Shown: positions 5,121-16,390 of the stretch, in pieces
How the letters are laid out: every line of letters begins with the position of its first letter
Position numbering within the stretch: position 1 is the stretch's first letter
Source: Candidatus Thermoplasmatota archaeon
GTDB lineage: Archaea; Thermoplasmatota; SW-10-69-26; JACQPN01; JAIVGT01
Assembly (NCBI GenBank): GCA_035541015.1
Contig: DATLFM010000055.1
Span: forward strand, 1-46,766
Direction of reading: 5' to 3'
DNA length: 46,766 nucleotides
The notes under the pieces: model-generated
Seen by the model: only the letters and a program-made list of their open reading frames with translations
The model's database searches: none
What the model was told of the DNA's origin: nothing
Program-made: the position numbers and the translations under genes

Positions 5121-5171
5121 CGCCGTCCGGGCGGGGCATCCCTTAAGAGGGCCGTCCGTTTTCCGGTGACG

Positions 5172-8090
5172 ATGGCCGAGTTCGACGCGATCGAGGAACG
5201 CTGGCAGCGCGCGTGGCAGGAACGCCGCGCGTACGAGCCTTCCGTCGATCCGGCGCGGCCCAAGTTCTTCGCCACCTACCCGTACTCGTACATGAACGCG
5301 TACGCGCACGTCGGTCACGCCTTCACGATGGCGCGCGTGGACTTCGCCGTGCGCCACCAGCGCATGAAGGGCAAGAACGTGCTCTTCCCGTTCGCCTACC
5401 ACCTCACGGGCACGCCCATCGTGGCGGCGGCCAACCGCGTGCGCGAGGGCGAGCAGACCCAGTGGCGCATGTTGCGCGAGCAGGGGTTCTCCGACGAGGA
5501 GGTCGCGAAGTTCGCGCAGCCGTGGCGCTTTGCGGAGGTGTTCCCGCCCGAGTGGCGGAAGGACGTCTCGCGTCTGGGGCTTGGGATCGACTGGCGCCGC
5601 CAGTTCTTCACGACGGACCGGAATCCCTGGTACGACCGGTTCATCCGGTGGCAGTTCACGAAGCTCGCCGAGGGCGGCTACGTGGGGAAGGGCCGCCACC
5701 CCGTGATCTGGTGCCCCAAGGACCGCCAGCCCATCGCCGACCACGACCGGCGCGAGGGCGAGGGCGAAACGCCCCAGGAGTACGTGCTCGTGAAGCTGCG
5801 CCTGACCGCGCCGGCTGCGGGCCTTCCGGCGGGCACCGTGCTCCCGGCCGCCACGTTGCGGCCCGAGACCATGTTCGCGCAGACGAACGCGTGGGTCGAC
5901 CCCGACATGGACTACGCGGTCCTCGACGTGGCGGGCGAAACGTGGGTCGCAAGCCCCACGTGCGCGCAGAAGCTCCCTCATCAGCTCGATCGCGTGACGG
6001 AGAAGGGCCGCGTCGCGGGCCGCGCGCTCGTCGGCGCGCGCGTCCATGCGCCCGCCCGCGAGGAAGCGGTGCTCGTGCTTCCGGCCTCCTTCCTCAAGCC
6101 CCACAAGGGAACCGGGATCGTCACGAGCGTCCCCTCGGACGCGCCGTTCGACTTCGCGGCGCTTTCCGACCTCCAGCGCGACGAACGCGCGATGGCAGAG
6201 TTCGGCCTCGACGCCGCCTCCGTCCGCGCTCTTTCGCCCATCCCGGTCATCGACTCGGGCGAAGCGGGAACGCTTCCCGCGCCCGCCGAAGTCAAGCGCC
6301 TTGGCGTGCAAGGCCAGCGCGACGTGGAGCTTCTCGAGAAGGCGACGGAGACCGTGTACCAGGCGGGCTTCTACAACGGCCGCATGCTCGAGCGCGCCGG
6401 CGAGTTCGCGGGGCTTCCCGTCGCGCAGGCCAAGGCGAAGGTGGCGCAGTGGCTCCTCTCCCGCGGCGACGCGGAGCGCTACTTCGAGCCCACGGGCCCC
6501 GTCGTGTGCCGCTGCCTTTCGGAGGGCATCGTGAAGATCGTTTCGGACCAGTGGTTCCTCACGTACGGCGATCCGGCGTGGAAGGAGAAGACGCACGAGG
6601 CGCTGGACCGCATGACGATCCACCCCGAGGTCGCGCGAAAGCAGTTCCACTACGTGGTCGACTGGCTGCGCGACTGGGCCTGCGCGCGCGACTCCGGCCT
6701 TGGCACGCGTCTTCCCATGGACGAGTCGCGCGTCGTGGAGTCGCTCTCCGACTCCACGATCTACATGGCCTACTACACGTTCGCGCACCTTCTCGACGCA
6801 AGCGTCGCCGAGCCCGCCTTCGCCGTCGACCCGAAGGATCTCACGGACGCCTTCTTCGGCTTCGTGCTCTTGGGCCGCGGAAACCCCGCGAACGCGGCGC
6901 GCGGCACGGTCACCCGCGAGGTCGCGGAGGCGTGCCGCCGCGAGTTCGCCTACTGGTACCCGTTTGACCTTCGCAACAGCGGCAAGGACCTTCTGCAGAA
7001 CCACCTGACCTTCGCCGTCTTCAACCACGTGGCCATCTGGCCCGACGAGCCCGAGCGCTGGCCCCGCGGCATGGGCGTGAACGGCTGGGTCATGGTGGAC
7101 GGGCAGAAGATGAGCAAGAGCGCCGGCAATTTCGTCACGCTGCGCCAGGCGCTCGACCAGTACGGCGCAAGCGCCGTGCGGATGGCGCTTGCCAACGCCG
7201 GCGAGGGGCTCGACGACGCGAGCTTCGAGCGCGACTTTGCCGCCACGATCGGCCGGCGCCTTGCGGCGTGGCTCGACGTCTACGCGAACCCCCCGCCCGC
7301 CTCCGACCGGGCGCCCACGCGCGCCGACCGCGCCTTCGCCAGCGCCCTTCACCGGATCCTCGCGGACCTCGACGCCGAGATGGAGAAGCTCAACTTCCGC
7401 ACCGCGCTCAAGCTTGCGTTCTTCGATCTTGCGTCGGCTTGGTCGTGGTACGTGCGCCGCAGCGCGCAGGACCCCTCGCGCGCGCTGCGCGACGTGTTCC
7501 TCTCCGCGCAGGCGCGCGCCCTTTCGCCCTTCGTCCCGCACCTTGCCGAGGAGGCGTGGAGCCGCCTGGGCAACGCAGGCAGCGTGATCGAGGCGCCCTG
7601 GCCGGTCGCCGATCCGGCGGCGCGCGACGAGGAGGCCGAGCGCGCGGAGTCGTACCTCCGCGAGGTTCTCGACGACGTTCGCGCCATCCTCAAGGTCACG
7701 GGACTCTCGCCCTCCCGCGTCGTGCTGTACGTGGCCGAGCCGTGGAAGCGATCGGCCCTCTCGCTTGCGGTTCTACATCCCGGAAAGGGCGGCCTCGACG
7801 TGGGTGCGTTCATGAAGGCCGCGCAGCAGGACCCCGAGCTTCGCGCGCGCATGAAGGAGTTGCCCGCGCTTGCCCAAAAGCTCGGAAAGGAGATGGCCTC
7901 CGGCGGCGCAGCCGCGCTTGCCGGACGCGCAAAGCCGCTGCCCGAGCTCGAGATCCTGCGCGAGGCGCTTCCATTCCTGTCCGCCGAGATCCCCGCGACG
8001 TGGGAGGTGCATGCCGCCGGCGAGGGCCCCGACCCGGCGGGCAAGGCCAAGCAGGCCATGCCGGGACGACCGGCGATCTACGTGCAGTAG
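5172..8090 (+). CDS. leuS: Leucyl-tRNA synthetase, archaeal/cytosolic type
   Basis: 972 residues. Charges tRNA-Leu with leucine in the cytoplasm. Class I signatures: HVGH at residues 46-49 (HIGH motif, after FATYPYSYMNAYA) and KMSKS at 646-650 (DGQKMSKSAGN). The large editing domain lies between them, entered after the zinc/CP1 region and including TLRPETMFAQTNAWV, and a class Ia anticodon-binding domain follows. The archaeal/eukaryal architecture (editing domain placement and the long C-terminal extension) separates it from bacterial LeuRS. An in-frame GTG at 5166 exists, but the ATG at 5172 is preferred because CTTAAGA near 5142-5149 predicts a start close to it. It ends three bases before the convergent tRNA-Val gene. 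Confidence 0.95.
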   Translation: MAEFDAIEERWQRAWQERRAYEPSVDPARPKFFATYPYSYMNAYAHVGHAFTMARVDFAVRHQRMKGKNVLFPFAYHLTGTPIVAAANRVREGEQTQWRMLREQGFSDEEVAKFAQPWRFAEVFPPEWRKDVSRLGLGIDWRRQFFTTDRNPWYDRFIRWQFTKLAEGGYVGKGRHPVIWCPKDRQPIADHDRREGEGETPQEYVLVKLRLTAPAAGLPAGTVLPAATLRPETMFAQTNAWVDPDMDYAVLDVAGETWVASPTCAQKLPHQLDRVTEKGRVAGRALVGARVHAPAREEAVLVLPASFLKPHKGTGIVTSVPSDAPFDFAALSDLQRDERAMAEFGLDAASVRALSPIPVIDSGEAGTLPAPAEVKRLGVQGQRDVELLEKATETVYQAGFYNGRMLERAGEFAGLPVAQAKAKVAQWLLSRGDAERYFEPTGPVVCRCLSEGIVKIVSDQWFLTYGDPAWKEKTHEALDRMTIHPEVARKQFHYVVDWLRDWACARDSGLGTRLPMDESRVVESLSDSTIYMAYYTFAHLLDASVAEPAFAVDPKDLTDAFFGFVLLGRGNPANAARGTVTREVAEACRREFAYWYPFDLRNSGKDLLQNHLTFAVFNHVAIWPDEPERWPRGMGVNGWVMVDGQKMSKSAGNFVTLRQALDQYGASAVRMALANAGEGLDDASFERDFAATIGRRLAAWLDVYANPPPASDRAPTRADRAFASALHRILADLDAEMEKLNFRTALKLAFFDLASAWSWYVRRSAQDPSRALRDVFLSAQARALSPFVPHLAEEAWSRLGNAGSVIEAPWPVADPAARDEEAERAESYLREVLDDVRAILKVTGLSPSRVVLYVAEPWKRSALSLAVLHPGKGGLDVGAFMKAAQQDPELRARMKELPALAQKLGKEMASGGAAALAGRAKPLPELEILREALPFLSAEIPATWEVHAAGEGPDPAGKAKQAMPGRPAIYVQ

Positions 8091-11168: not shown

Positions 11169-11972
11169 ATGCGACCACGAATCGCAACGAGAGCCTGGGC
11201 CGCGGGGATCGTCCTCGCGGTGGCGCTTGCAGCCGTGCCGGCTGCGGCGCACGAGAACCCGAACCACGGAACGATCAAGGTGCACGACGACGAGGTCGTC
11301 TCGCCCCCGCAGCGAAACGATCCGCGCGTCGACTGCGACTTTTGGATCGAGGGCTTCAAGATGACGAACGACGAGGGCTGGCTCGTGTTCTACGAGTGGC
11401 CGCCCACGGGGGACAAGTCCGAGGTCCTGCGCGCCGACTGGGAGGCCGACGCGGAGGACACGCCCATGGGCTTCCACTTCAAGGCGGGACCCTTCTCGCT
11501 GCCCTCGGGCCACTACCGCGTGGAAGCGTACGTGGACGAGGGCCACTTCGCGAAGGCGAAGATGTTCTGGACCGACTGCGAGGAGGACGATGGCAACGGT
11601 GGAAACGGAGGTCCGCCCCCGCCGCCCGAGTGTCCGCCGACCGAGCTTGAAGCCGTCGCCAACGCCGACGGAACGATCTCCGTCACCGTGATGAACGAGG
11701 GCGCGGTCTTCGTGCTCTACCGCTCCGTGGACGGGGGCGACTGGGAGCATGTGACCGAGATGCTGGACGGGTCGACCGTGGTCGACGGGCCCTACCCCGT
11801 AGGTACGGTCGTGGACTACGGCGTTCGCCACTTCGACGGGCGGCGCGTGACCGCGGAGTTCTGCGCCACCGCGTCGGCGACGGCGATCCCGTTCTTCACG
11901 AGCCCGCTTGCGGCCGCGGGAGCCGCGCTGGGCGGCTTGGGCGCCTACGCGTTCCTCCGCCGGCGGCCGTAG
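11169..11972 (+). CDS. Sortase substrate 1: secreted protein with FN3-like stalk and IPFFTSP C-terminal sorting tail
   Basis: 267 residues. Signal peptide at 1-27 (basic start, hydrophobic run, VPAAAHEN). An acidic head of unknown fold follows (about 28-135), rich in Trp and acidic residues, then a GNGGNGGPPPPPE linker and an FN3-like stalk that opens with CPPT and closes with a Cys about nine residues before the tail. The last 31 residues are the sorting signal: ATAIPFFTSP (237-246), an Ala/Gly-rich hydrophobic helix, and LRRRP. The same stalk-plus-tail recurs in the next two genes, and the apparent sorting enzyme is at 13576. The 27 nt encoding TAIPFFTSP are identical in substrates 1 and 2 (11880-11906 and 12804-12830). 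The start follows GGAG; a strong hairpin terminator follows the gene. Head function unknown. Confidence 0.8.
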   Translation: MRPRIATRAWAAGIVLAVALAAVPAAAHENPNHGTIKVHDDEVVSPPQRNDPRVDCDFWIEGFKMTNDEGWLVFYEWPPTGDKSEVLRADWEADAEDTPMGFHFKAGPFSLPSGHYRVEAYVDEGHFAKAKMFWTDCEEDDGNGGNGGPPPPPECPPTELEAVANADGTISVTVMNEGAVFVLYRSVDGGDWEHVTEMLDGSTVVDGPYPVGTVVDYGVRHFDGRRVTAEFCATASATAIPFFTSPLAAAGAALGGLGAYAFLRRRP

Positions 11973-11984
11973 AGCGTTTCCCGT

Positions 11985-12022
11985 ACGGGCGCCCGCGTCC
12001 GCGGGCGCCCGTTCTTTTTTTT
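11985..12022 (+). terminator. Hairpin plus T-tract after sortase substrate 1
   Basis: A perfect 12-bp stem (ACGGGCGCCCGC at 11985-11996 with its complement at 12001-12012) with a 4-nt loop, followed by TTCTTTTTTTT. It resembles an intrinsic terminator and suggests substrate 1 is transcribed alone. Confidence 0.7.
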
Positions 12023-12134
12023 CGTCGAACGTTTCGCGTTGCCAGGATCCTCTTTTTCCCCTCGCCGCCCCGCCGTCCGAGGCGCGTGCCGGAAACCCTA
12101 TCCTGCCCCGTGGCGGAGAAGCGGCGGCGATCCC

Positions 12135-12896
12135 ATGAACGCACGCATCGTACGAACAGGAATGGCAGTTGGATTGGGCTTGGCCATGGCGCTTCTGGCG
12201 CTTCCGGCCTCCGCGCAGACCGTGACGCCGGGGAACCCCCGCTGTGCCGACCTCGATTCGGACTTCGTGGAGTTCAAGATCGAACCCATGGCCAATGGGG
12301 TGTTCACCGACGGCACGATCGTGGTTACGATCGCGAACTTCAACGGGACGCACTTCGATTTTGTGGCAAGCGAAGGCGTTCACGCGGTCATCGTGAAGGG
12401 CGGCCCGAACGCCAACGTGTACACGTACGACCCGCCCACGAACGCCGACACGGGTCTTCGAGCGCCGATCAACCCGAACAACAACCGTCCCTTTAGCATC
12501 AGCCAGGCCTCCTTCTGCTACATCGTGACGACAAACGGCAACGGGCCGGGGCCGGAGTGCCCGACGAACCTCGAGGCGCAGGCGCGCTCCGATACGACGA
12601 TCCTTCTGACGTGGGACGCCGCGACGGACGCCGACTCGTACAACGTGTACCGCGCCGTCGGGGCCGGACCCTTCGTCCTGCTCGGAAACACGACGGGCAC
12701 GTCGTTCGTGGATTCGGACACGGTCGTCGGCGTGACGTACCGGTACACGGTGACGACCGTGATCGGCGACGAGGAGTCGGAGGACTGCGACGAGGTGGAA
12801 GCCACGGCGATCCCGTTCTTCACGAGCCCGTGGGCCGCCGCGATTGCGACGGTGGGCGCAACGGGCGCCTGGGTGGCCTTGCGCCGCCGCAGCTAG
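12135..12896 (+). CDS. Sortase substrate 2: secreted protein with FN3-like stalk and IPFFTSP tail
   Basis: 253 residues from ATG 12135. Signal peptide 1-25 (LALPASAQT). The head, about residues 26-135, has beta-rich sequence (DGTIVVTIANFNGTHFDFV, then GVHAVIVKGGPNANVYTYDP) and two cysteines, a possible beta-sandwich. The FN3-like stalk runs from CPTNLEAQARS to ESEDCDEVE, with VTYRYTVTTV as the classic FN3 F/G strand pattern. The tail (223-253) is ATAIPFFTSP, a hydrophobic helix starting WAAAIATVGA, and LRRRS. It differs from substrate 1 only in the helix and last residue, so both should be processed by the same enzyme. Followed by its own hairpin terminator. Confidence 0.8.
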   Translation: MNARIVRTGMAVGLGLAMALLALPASAQTVTPGNPRCADLDSDFVEFKIEPMANGVFTDGTIVVTIANFNGTHFDFVASEGVHAVIVKGGPNANVYTYDPPTNADTGLRAPINPNNNRPFSISQASFCYIVTTNGNGPGPECPTNLEAQARSDTTILLTWDAATDADSYNVYRAVGAGPFVLLGNTTGTSFVDSDTVVGVTYRYTVTTVIGDEESEDCDEVEATAIPFFTSPWAAAIATVGATGAWVALRRRS

Positions 12897-12906
12897 GTTC
12901 TTCGAG

Positions 12907-12937
12907 GGGGGCCTCCGGGCCCCCGTTTCTCTTTCTT
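12907..12937 (+). terminator. Hairpin plus T-rich tract after sortase substrate 2
   Basis: A 7-bp GC stem (12907-12913 with 12918-12924), 4-nt loop, then TTTCTCTTTCTT. Weaker than the terminator after substrate 1 but placed identically. Confidence 0.5.
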
Positions 12938-12999
12938 AATGTGGCGGCCGATCGGCGTCCCAGCACCGCTTTGAGCGTCACCGACGAACCCCTCCTCGT

Positions 13000-13566
13000 A
13001 TGCCTCCGCGTTCTCCCCTCGTCCTGCCGAGCCTTGCGTCCCTGTTCTTGTTCCTTGCCGGCGCCGCGACGGTCTCCGCGCAATTCGAACCCCACTGCTC
13101 CGACGGGTTCGACAACGACGAGGACGGCCTCGTCGATTACCCGGACGACCCCGGCTGCGAGTCTCCCGACGACGAGGACGAATCGAACCGCCCGCCGGCG
13201 ACGGCGCCGCCGCCGTGTCCCACGAGCGTGAACGCCGAAGCGCACGAGGACGCGAGCATCATGGTCACGTGGTCGAGCCACTTCACGGCCGAGGTGGACC
13301 GGCTCTACCGCGCCGAGGGCGACGGCCCCTTCGAGCTGTTTGCCCAAAGCACGCCCGAGCATCCGCACATCCTCGACGCGAGCACGACGCCAGGCACGAC
13401 GTACCGCTACCGCGTGACGTCCTCGAACGAGCTTGGCGAGTCGGAGGGGTGCGGTTTCGTCGAAGCGACGGCCGTACCGTTCCTCCCCGACCCGGCCCTT
13501 GGCGTGGCCCTGGCGCTTGCGTGCACGGGGGCCCTCGCGTGGGGCGCTCGCCGGCCGGAGGGTTGA
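13000..13566 (+). CDS. Sortase substrate 3: secreted Ca-loop/FN3-like protein with divergent sorting tail
   Basis: 188 residues. Signal peptide 1-27 (hydrophobic run ending ATVSAQF). The short head contains CSDGFDNDEDGLVDYPDDPG, an EF-hand-like acidic loop flanked by cysteines that is common in secreted bacterial and archaeal proteins and is probably a calcium-stabilised module. The stalk starts CPTSVNAEAHEDASIMVTW and ends ESEGCGFVE. The tail is ATAVPFLPDP, a hydrophobic helix, then ARRPEG, so the PF core and basic end are kept but FTSP is changed to LPDP. It lies nine bases before the sortase gene, and the two are probably one transcript. Confidence 0.78.
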   Translation: MPPRSPLVLPSLASLFLFLAGAATVSAQFEPHCSDGFDNDEDGLVDYPDDPGCESPDDEDESNRPPATAPPPCPTSVNAEAHEDASIMVTWSSHFTAEVDRLYRAEGDGPFELFAQSTPEHPHILDASTTPGTTYRYRVTSSNELGESEGCGFVEATAVPFLPDPALGVALALACTGALAWGARRPEG

Positions 13567-13575
13567 GCCAACCCC

Positions 13576-14496
13576 ATGGCGCCGGCGGCCGAGCGTGCGC
13601 GTCTTGTGGCGGGCCTGCTTGCGGCAGGCTACGGCCTTCTCTCCTTGACGGGCGTCCTCGACCACGAGACGCCCGCGCCCCTGGCGCTTGTCCTCGTGGC
13701 CGTCGGCTTGGGTCTGGCCGCTGCGCCGCTTGCGCGCGCGGCGCGCGCCCCGAGCCCGTCGAAGCCGCTTCGGCGGAACCTCGTCCTTGCGCTGGGCTTC
13801 TTTTGCTTCGGCAGCGTGCTCGCGTACAACCTCGCTTCGGGCTCGGCCTTCTCGGCCCCCGAGCTTGCGCTTCTTGCCTACGGCTTTGCGCTCGTTGCGC
13901 TCGCGCCGTTCCTCGAACGCCGCGCGGGACCGCTCAAGGTCGACACGCTTGTGGCGTACAGCCTTCCTCTGCTCCTTGCGCCCCTTGCCGCGTGGGCGCT
14001 CCAGGCCCTGCTCGAGTCGGGCGCGGGCGACTCGCCGCTTCGGTGGTACCTTCGCCACGCGCTCGTGGATCCCATGGCGGGCACCCTTTCGCTGCTTGGC
14101 ATCCCCGCGTCCGTGCGCGGCGAGACGGTCGCGCTTGCAACCGACCGAGGCACGCTCTTCCTCACCGTGGGCGTCGTGTGCGCCGGCTTCTATCCGGCGG
14201 CCCTCTTCCTGGGCCTCCTGGGCCTCTTCGCGTGGGAGCGCAACCTTCCGCCCCGACGCCTTGCGCTCTACGCGCTGCTTGGGCTTGCGGGCGTCTGGTT
14301 GGCCAACGTCGCGCGGCTCGTGCTGCTGGCCGTGGTCGGCCGCGAATGGGGCGGACGCGCGTTGCAGGAGGCCCATCAGCACGCAGGCTGGGCGCTCTTT
14401 CTTGCCTTCACGCTTGCCTTCTGGTTCTTGGTCCTTCGGCGCTTTGAGCAACCCGCTGCCGCCGGCGGCGGCCTGAGCCAAACCGCAAAGAACTAG
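13576..14496 (+). CDS. Archaeosortase/exosortase-family transpeptidase
   Basis: 306 residues, about eight hydrophobic segments. The exosortase catalytic triad is visible: Cys202 in VVCAGFYPAALFLGLLGLF, Arg247 in NVARLVLL (N-x-x-R), and His269 in EAHQHAGWALFLAF. The 22-residue Arg-to-His gap and the H-x-G-W pattern match bacterial exosortases better than haloarchaeal ArtA, where the third residue is Arg (recalled from the family literature). Such enzymes cleave tripartite C-terminal signals at the membrane and pass the protein to an anchor. Three proteins with a shared tail lie directly upstream, and substrate 3 ends nine bases before this ATG, so they are the probable substrates. The cleavage site and the anchor are not known. 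Confidence 0.82.
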   Translation: MAPAAERARLVAGLLAAGYGLLSLTGVLDHETPAPLALVLVAVGLGLAAAPLARAARAPSPSKPLRRNLVLALGFFCFGSVLAYNLASGSAFSAPELALLAYGFALVALAPFLERRAGPLKVDTLVAYSLPLLLAPLAAWALQALLESGAGDSPLRWYLRHALVDPMAGTLSLLGIPASVRGETVALATDRGTLFLTVGVVCAGFYPAALFLGLLGLFAWERNLPPRRLALYALLGLAGVWLANVARLVLLAVVGREWGGRALQEAHQHAGWALFLAFTLAFWFLVLRRFEQPAAAGGGLSQTAKN

Positions 14497-14521: not shown

Positions 14522-16390
14522 ATGCGGGCGTCCCCCGTGACGGCGTGCGCGGTCCTGGCGTTGAGCACGGGGGCGGTCGCGTGGCTTCTCCAACGCCCGG
14601 GCGATGTCCCTGGGCCTCTTCCTGCGCTCCTGGCCGTCGCGGGCTCCGTCGCCGGCGCGGCAGCGCTTCTCTCGACCCGTCGCCACGCGGGCACGATGCT
14701 GCTTCTGGCCTCGGCCGCCCTTGCGCTTGGAACGGCCTCCACCGACGCGCTCTGGCCCGACGCGCTGCCGCTTGCCGCGGGCGCCGCCGCATGGCTTGCG
14801 GCCGCTCCCCTTGCCCTTGGCGCGGCGGCCGCCGCGCATGCGATCGACGCCAACGCTCGGCGGGGGGCGCCCGACGCGCCGGCGCTCGCCCGATTGGCTC
14901 CGGAGGCGGTGCGCGTGCTGCGGGACGGGACCGAGCGATTCGTTTCCGCCGCCGAGCTTGCAGTCGACGATCGGATGATCGTGGCGGAAGGCGAGCGTCT
15001 GGCGGCCGACGGCGTGGTCGCGCGGGGAACCGGCAGCGTCGAGACTGCGCACCTCACGGGCGAGCCCTTGCCCGCCGACGTCGGGGAAGGAGACGCCGTG
15101 CCCGCCGGCGGTCTTGTGGTCCAGGGCCGTCTCGTGGTGCGCGCGACGCGGACGGGCGCCGAAACGTCGCTGGGTCGGATCCTCGCCTCGCTCGAAGAAT
15201 CCGCCGCGCCCCCGTTTGCCGGAAGCGGCGAGGCGACGGCCGCGCGCATGGTCCCCCTCGTGCTGGCGGCCGCAGCCGGCGCGGCGGTCGTGTCGCATCT
15301 CACGCTTGCTCCGCTTGCCGCGCCGCTTCCGCTGCTCCTTGCCGTGCTCTTGGCCGGCGCGCCCGCTTCGCTGCCGCTGGCCGTCCGGCCGGCCCTTCAC
15401 GGCGCGCGGCTTGCGGCCCGCGTCCGCGGGGCGCTCGTGAAGGACGCCCAAGCCCTCGAACGCCTCGCGCGCGTCCAAACGATCGTCTTCGACAAGACCG
15501 GGACGCTCACGCAAGGCCGGCTGGCGCTGGCGCACGTGGAAGGCCTTGCCAAAAACCAGGAGGAGATCCTCGCGCTTGCCGCCGCCGCGGAGGCACACAA
15601 TGGGCATCTGCTCGCGCGAGCCGTCGTCGCGGCCGCCGCGGACCGCCGCATCGAACCGGCGCGCGTGACCGACGCGAGAACGCTTGCGAGCGTGGGCGTC
15701 GAGGCGACCTTCGAAGGCCGGGAGCTTCTCGTGGGAAGCGCAAAGCTGCTTCGATCCCGCCGCGTGGACATCGAGCGGGCTCTTGCCCGCTGGGACGAGC
15801 TTCAATCCAAGGGATTCACGACCGTAGGGGTAAGCGTGGGAGGAACGCTTGTCGGCCTTCTCGCCTTCTCGGATCCCCTGCGCCCGGAAAGCGGGGAAGC
15901 CGCGGCGCGCCTGCGCGAGCTTGGCGTCGAGTGCGCGATCGTGACCGGCGACCACGTTCGGACGGCCGAGGCGGCCGCGCGCGAGCTCGGGCTTCGCCGC
16001 GTGTTCGCCGAGATCACGCCCCAGGGAAAGGCGGGCGCCGTGCGCGGCTTGCAGGAAGGAGGCCGCGTGGTGGCCGTCGTTGGCGACGGCGTCAACGACG
16101 CTCCCGCGCTTGCCGCCGCCGACGTCGGGATCGCCATGGGCTCGGGCGCGCAGGTGGCCGTCGAGGAGGCCGGCGTGGTCCTGCTGCGGCCAGACGTGCG
16201 CCTCGTCCCCGAGCTTGTGTCCTTGGCGCGTTTGCGGATGGAGCGCGCTCGGTCCAGCCTGCGCCTGGCGATCGCCTTCTTGGCCGTCGCCATGGCGCTT
16301 GCGGCCGCCGGCCTCCTGCCGCTTGTGCTCGCCGGACCGGTGGCCGCGCTCGCCGCCGCGCCGGCGCTTCTTTTCTCCCGAACCGGCTAG
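14522..16390 (+). CDS. P1B-like P-type ATPase lacking the CPC metal-site motif
   Basis: 622 residues. Core P-type features: actuator loop TAHLTGEPLPAD, phosphorylated Asp324 in DKTGTLTQG, TGDH, and hinge GDGVNDAPALAAADVGIAMG. Segment arrangement (four N-terminal hydrophobic stretches, two before the P-domain, two at the end) matches P1B heavy-metal pumps. Three expected features are absent: an N-terminal metal-binding domain, the CPC of helix 6 (here A280-P281-A282 in LLAGAPASLPLAV), and the SEHPLA motif of the N-domain (here AHNGHLLARAV). It should still hydrolyse ATP, but the transported ion cannot be predicted. It starts 25 nt after the sortase gene in the same direction. Convergent overlap with the symporter in CTAG. 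Confidence 0.85.
   Translation: MRASPVTACAVLALSTGAVAWLLQRPGDVPGPLPALLAVAGSVAGAAALLSTRRHAGTMLLLASAALALGTASTDALWPDALPLAAGAAAWLAAAPLALGAAAAAHAIDANARRGAPDAPALARLAPEAVRVLRDGTERFVSAAELAVDDRMIVAEGERLAADGVVARGTGSVETAHLTGEPLPADVGEGDAVPAGGLVVQGRLVVRATRTGAETSLGRILASLEESAAPPFAGSGEATAARMVPLVLAAAAGAAVVSHLTLAPLAAPLPLLLAVLLAGAPASLPLAVRPALHGARLAARVRGALVKDAQALERLARVQTIVFDKTGTLTQGRLALAHVEGLAKNQEEILALAAAAEAHNGHLLARAVVAAAADRRIEPARVTDARTLASVGVEATFEGRELLVGSAKLLRSRRVDIERALARWDELQSKGFTTVGVSVGGTLVGLLAFSDPLRPESGEAAARLRELGVECAIVTGDHVRTAEAAARELGLRRVFAEITPQGKAGAVRGLQEGGRVVAVVGDGVNDAPALAAADVGIAMGSGAQVAVEEAGVVLLRPDVRLVPELVSLARLRMERARSSLRLAIAFLAVAMALAAAGLLPLVLAGPVAALAAAPALLFSRTG

Follow-up and report, generated by a model that had tools for sequence, protein, structure and literature searches.

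We analysed a window of 46,766 nt from a Thermoplasmatota archaeon and found in it a run of four genes, all on the (+) strand, in which three genes for secreted proteins are followed by the gene for a membrane enzyme of the archaeosortase family. The first (11169..11972, 267 aa) encodes a signal peptide, a new Ig-like domain, an fn3-like region and a C-terminal tail with the motif IPxF; the second (12135..12896, 253 aa) a signal peptide, an fn3-like domain and the same kind of tail; and the third (13000..13566, 188 aa) a signal peptide, an acidic, D-rich stretch, an fn3-like region and a tail variant that reads VPFLPDP. The enzyme gene (13576..14496, 306 aa) begins after a gap of 9 bp. Below, the three proteins are called substrates 1, 2 and 3, the enzyme is called the 13576 enzyme, and the system provisionally bears the name IPxF-CTERM with dedicated archaeosortase. 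The ATG codons at 11169 and 12135 are most likely the starts of the first two genes. The G+C fraction at the third codon position is 0.83-0.89 in all four genes (69% G+C for the window as a whole), which supports all four as real. A preliminary description of this DNA had pointed to three adjacent secreted proteins with a common tail followed by a sortase-family gene, and both the open reading frames (ORFs) and the enzyme's score of 52.9 bits against TIGR04178 (cut-off 23) bear this out.

What do the three proteins have in common? Each begins with a signal-peptide-like stretch, and the ORFs end in ...ATAIPFFTSPLAAAGAALGGLGAYAFLRRRP, ...ATAIPFFTSPWAAAIATVGATGAWVALRRRS and ...ATAVPFLPDPALGVALALACTGALAWGARRPEG, the final 38-40 residues being alike: A-T-A-[IV]-P-F-[FL], a short Pro-bearing spacer, a hydrophobic helix and a basic end. 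The tail of substrate 1 (11856..11969, +) consists of ATAIPFFTSP, the helix and RRRP, that of substrate 2 (12780..12893, +) of ATAIPFFTSP, the helix and RRRS, and that of substrate 3 (13444..13557, +) of ATAVPFLPDP, the helix and ARRPEG; in their own genome they match the tail profile with E-values of 2.7e-21, 4e-24 and 2.5e-21, respectively. The IPFFTSP core originally described for all three tails is thus present in two of them, but the third has VPFLPDP instead, together with a weaker basic end. For the window the pattern can be written as T-A-[IV]-P-F-[FL]-x-x-P, then a hydrophobic helix, then Arg. In six frames the window holds 276 ORFs that are 90 aa or longer, and a relaxed form of the motif stands at the C-terminus of exactly these three; the expectation by chance, from shuffled C-termini, is 0.025 per window. 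Over the whole of the own genome (2.2 Mb, 96% complete) the tail profile finds the three window proteins only, the next best match having an E-value of 0.25. The consensus of the 26 tails that we collected is [TAI]-x-[IV]-P-[FVTL]-[FL]-[PGST], followed by a hydrophobic helix and by Arg or Lys; the Pro is invariant in all 26, Phe or Leu stands two residues on, and the distance from the Pro to the end is 26-31 residues. Motif, helix and basic end are found on signal-peptide proteins whose bodies are unrelated and which have a paired enzyme, as is characteristic of a C-terminal sorting signal.

By its family-model matches and its conserved residues, the 13576 enzyme is a member of the exosortase/archaeosortase superfamily. 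In addition to TIGR04178 it matches Exosortase_EpsH of Pfam (PF09721) with 36.3 bits (cut-off 25.7), and C202, G204, N244, R247, H267 and G271 are invariant in five orthologues. These residues make up the motifs C202-A-G, N244-x-x-R247 and H267-x-x-x-G271, in agreement with all three published motifs of EpsH, namely Cys-x-Gly, Asn-x-x-Arg and His-x-x-x-Gly (PMC1569441). For the catalytic triad first proposed, Cys202 and the Asn-x-x-Arg motif hold, but the correct His is the invariant H267 and not His269; the position equivalent to 269 is Asn in the enzyme of G004 (here and below, G000 is the own genome and the other G numbers are genomes that were searched). The argument first drawn from an exosortase-like Arg-to-His spacing is not needed here. 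Several hydrophobic segments, together with long helices in an AlphaFold model built from five sequences, indicate a multi-pass membrane protein. The model is of moderate confidence, with a mean pLDDT of 68 and block means of ~75-90 over residues 161-290, and it has a small beta element immediately ahead of C202. Foldseek, run with this moderate-confidence model, matched no solved structure at E<=0.001; by sequence, a profile of the enzyme found nothing credible in the PDB; and we found no relative among plasmid records and viral contigs.

Do enzyme and tail occur together in other genomes? A search of 193 other genomes with the enzyme as query gave strong orthologues in G003 (5.6e-59), G004 (1.2e-36), G005 (1.5e-69) and G076 (2.2e-64). 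The preliminary description had proposed comparing a tail profile with the orthologues of the enzyme: when built from the own genome's three tails and run over the same 193 genomes, such a profile matches at E<1e-3 in G001, G003, G004, G005, G008 and G076, and so recovers all four strong-orthologue genomes (Fisher p=2.7e-7, with G008 counted though later rejected). Over 390 genomes of the phylum, a 19-tail profile gives E<1e-6 in G000, G001, G003, G004, G005, G076 and G213, and an enzyme profile gives E<1e-70 in G000, G003, G004, G005, G076 and G213. Of these, G213 contributed to neither profile, and only ~50 bp separate the end of its tail gene from the enzyme match that follows. Moreover, a tail gene lies directly upstream of the enzyme in five of the six enzyme-positive genomes (G000, G003, G004, G005 and G213; not G076). 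The term archaeosortase island, which had been applied to the locus, fits the local cluster in the window, but in relatives most substrates are scattered genome-wide; G005, for instance, has about ten tail proteins spread over its contigs. Weaker tail matches with E-values of ~0.001-0.01 (G008, G021, G173, G183 and others) were rejected on reading as chance or as other tail types. A match in G285 (3e-5) reads NIPTLAIYA and was rejected for having no Phe or Leu at the fourth motif place. We also note that the record JAJPHT01 (L058), filed as Proteobacteria, carries enzyme and tails of this archaeal set and is probably misfiled.

We therefore consider it very probable, on the evidence of co-occurrence, adjacency and the held-out case of G213, that the 13576 gene encodes a dedicated processing enzyme for the IPxF-tail proteins, which is the pairing that had been proposed for the locus. 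Several points weigh against this reading. The enzyme-positive genomes number only six and are partly related, and the p-values ignore kinship and overstate independence, so that they are strong but not literal. Because the tails were gathered iteratively, the unbiased tests are those with the G000-only profile and with G213 alone. Many tails follow an fn3-like domain, so that what the sequences have in common ahead of the motif may in part go back to shared descent of that domain. A tail in a genome that lacks any orthologue of the enzyme had been named as the finding that would count against a pair, and it is approached in G001 only, which has a clear tail (2.2e-15) and in whose assembly (76% complete, 400 contigs) the enzyme was not found. 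Finally, the partners are identified by genomics only, and cleavage and lipid anchoring would carry over to them from what the family is taken to do.

If the 13576 enzyme acts as its family suggests, the substrates would be exported by way of their signal peptides and held in the membrane by the tail helix. Cys202 would then attack the tail near the IPxF motif, releasing the C-terminal peptide, and a nucleophile, probably an archaeal phospholipid by way of its amine, would take over the new C-terminal end. Presumably the protein would end up lipid-anchored outside the cell.

How does this pair relate to the named systems? The comparisons with named models were made against NCBIfam 20.0, and in these scans no named enzyme subfamily or sorting-tail model fitted, all six enzymes staying under every named-subfamily cut-off. 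The nearest system is archaeosortase C (ArtC, TIGR03762), which is reported to recognise PEF-CTERM (PMC5244752). It could be that the enzyme is a divergent ArtC and that the IPxF tails amount to PEF-CTERM signals, so that a known system is seen here at the margin of what its models cover; we think this unlikely, but of the alternatives it deserves the most weight. Of the named subfamilies, ArtC scores best with five of the six orthologues and comes second, after XrtX, with the window's own enzyme. The two tails have in common the [IV]P-x-F pattern, the helix and the basic end, and hhalign brings the tail profile nearer to PEF tails (95% probability) than to PGF tails (83%). In the phylum to which Methanosarcina belongs (295 genomes searched), the sole tail match below 1e-4 (1.6e-7) ends in IPEFPT, a helix and Arg/Lys, and judged by this ending it is a PEF-type tail; a PEF-like tail also adjoins an ArtC of Archaeoglobaceae. 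However, the ArtC scores of the six enzymes (38.7, 45.3, 50.8, 52.5, 62.2 and 75.3 bits) all fall short of the cut-off of 100. The tails differ from PEF-CTERM chiefly in the Glu of PEF at the third motif position, which occurs in none of the 26, F, V, T or L standing there instead, and no IPxF tail matches the PEF-CTERM model TIGR03024 at E<=1, against 40-43 bits for Methanosarcina controls. A tree of 41 sequences unites the six enzymes in a single group (91/86), separate from a clade (98/97) of two true ArtC and one further Thermoplasmatota sequence, L102; ArtA is far off. Given the scores below cut-off, the separate tree group and the lack of a match to the PEF-CTERM model, the sequences place the system beside ArtC/PEF-CTERM rather than within it.

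Two further observations on the tree concern other archaeosortases of the phylum. L102, from G263, groups with the ArtC of Methanosarcina (100/99), indicating that ArtC also occurs in Thermoplasmatota. The sequences L096-L113 (16 rows, Thermoplasmatota) make up a clade of their own (90/92), some members of which end in a zinc-ribbon-like C-x-x-C pattern, and their genomes are without convincing IPxF tails.

Similarly, the other named systems resemble this one in part. Two of the tails weakly resemble the model of VPXXXP-CTERM (TIGR04143), the partner of archaeosortase B (TIGR04144), whereas the 13576 enzyme scores only 14.1 bits against archaeosortase B (cut-off 150) and one tail protein 16.4 bits against VPXXXP-CTERM (cut-off 30). 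This resemblance, with an E-value of 4e-4, is the best of the weak matches that 19 tails gave across NCBIfam, and the earlier view that the tail core belongs to no named CTERM class is supported. EpsH shares its three motifs with the 13576 enzyme, but it is bacterial and tied to exopolysaccharide, and its tail motif is PEP.

The own genome has a second sorting route. On contig C102 lies a separate enzyme of the superfamily, which with 123.2 bits against TIGR04125 (cut-off 75) is ArtA, and elsewhere there are PGF-type tails (e.g. ...TPGFAPLAVLGAAGAVALLARRRQA), the best with 24.4 bits against the cut-off of 24.5 for PGF-CTERM (TIGR04126). Among archaea, it is ArtA with PGF-CTERM that has been studied by experiment, lipid anchoring included; the substrates of ArtA in Haloferax are believed to be cleaved and then attached to a lipid that PssA and PssD help to make (PMC7157517). 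The own genome's ArtA adjoins a frame that by eye reads as a phosphatidylserine-decarboxylase-like protein. Could this ArtA process the IPxF tails as well, the neighbouring enzyme having some other role? PGF and IPxF tails do have the same overall layout, and an ArtA match is found in all nine genomes tested (over the cut-off in eight; in G213 it comes in two sub-cut-off pieces). However, ArtA is present in G002, of the same order and 98% complete, and in G006, of the same class and 75% complete, and in both of these no second enzyme and no IPxF tail were found, so that the tail follows the second enzyme and not ArtA. Moreover, the IPxF tails lack the PGF motif, only one of 19 matches the PGF model (E 0.33), and the 13576 enzyme is not among the TIGR04125 matches in its genome; we regard processing by ArtA as highly improbable. 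Just as hard to credit is the idea that the tails have no sorting function and simply anchor the C-terminus in the membrane, having been inherited along with surface proteins of fn3 type: an fn3-like domain does lie just ahead of the tail in most tail proteins, but the tail is also found on proteins without an fn3 match (in G213, and two in G004), its Pro is invariant in the 26 tails, with 26-31 residues from motif to end, and it co-occurs with the enzyme, often next to it.

More generally, with the 13576 enzyme as dedicated partner of the IPxF tails, such cells would have two parallel sorting routes, ArtA acting on PGF-CTERM proteins and the second enzyme on IPxF proteins. We think it likely that IPxF-CTERM and its enzyme represent a separate specificity class of archaeal protein sorting in some Thermoplasmatota, working alongside ArtA/PGF-CTERM, insulated from it by motif recognition, and with an Ig-like substrate domain of its own that has turned up on no other proteins. 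Experimental work on archaeosortases has focused on ArtA of Haloferax. Our analysis adds an enzyme-tail pair outside the NCBIfam models scanned, from Thermoplasmatota known here from draft assemblies only, and the papers that a literature search on archaeosortases in Thermoplasmata returned give no account of it in their titles and abstract openings. Cells of this kind offer a natural two-enzyme setting in which to ask how archaeosortases discriminate between substrates (PGF vs PEF vs P[FVT]F), and the tail lets annotators identify a group of surface proteins for which there is otherwise no name.

The bodies that precede the tail differ. Most have an fn3-like domain and one has an ice-binding domain plus fn3, and Pfam matches are absent from the bodies of the G213 tail protein and of two G004 tail proteins. 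In the window itself, the fn3 match of substrate 2 reaches 19.3 bits, under the cut-off of 25, and substrate 3 has a sub-threshold match to the acidic double-disulfide repeat NF033662. A simple score of hydropathy finds a stretch resembling a signal peptide at the start of most complete tail proteins; where it seems to be lacking (L158, L047 and the first entry of L003), the protein is cut by the limits of the contig, frame or locus.

Substrate 1 carries in addition a domain of ~112 aa (11250..11585, +) with the pattern HDD...CDFWIEGF...GPxxLPxGHY, for which there is no significant Pfam match. Searched without the tail over the 390 genomes, this domain gives 10 matches, in G000, G004, G005 and G076 only, all of them enzyme-positive genomes; nine of the ten share an ORF with an IPxF tail and the tenth lies beside one in another frame. 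The fold predicted for it is all-beta (pLDDT 84) and weakly matches Ig-like structures in the PDB, at TM-scores of about 0.3-0.5. The copy in L179 (G076:C67; G076 is of a different family) is 64% identical but is not beside the enzyme, and the enzymes are about 45% identical; possibly the domain was transferred separately.

As for the neighbouring genes, a heavy-metal P-type ATPase (14522-16390, +; 405 bits to TIGR01525) begins 25 bp past the enzyme gene. We considered it as a part of the system and rejected it, since none was found next to the enzyme at the relatives' loci examined. Elsewhere in the window, a 974-residue frame (5166-8090, +) by eye resembles leucyl-tRNA synthetase, and an open frame of 947 residues (33-2876, +) reads by eye as a secreted, repeat-containing surface protein, which begins close to the edge of the contig and may be truncated.

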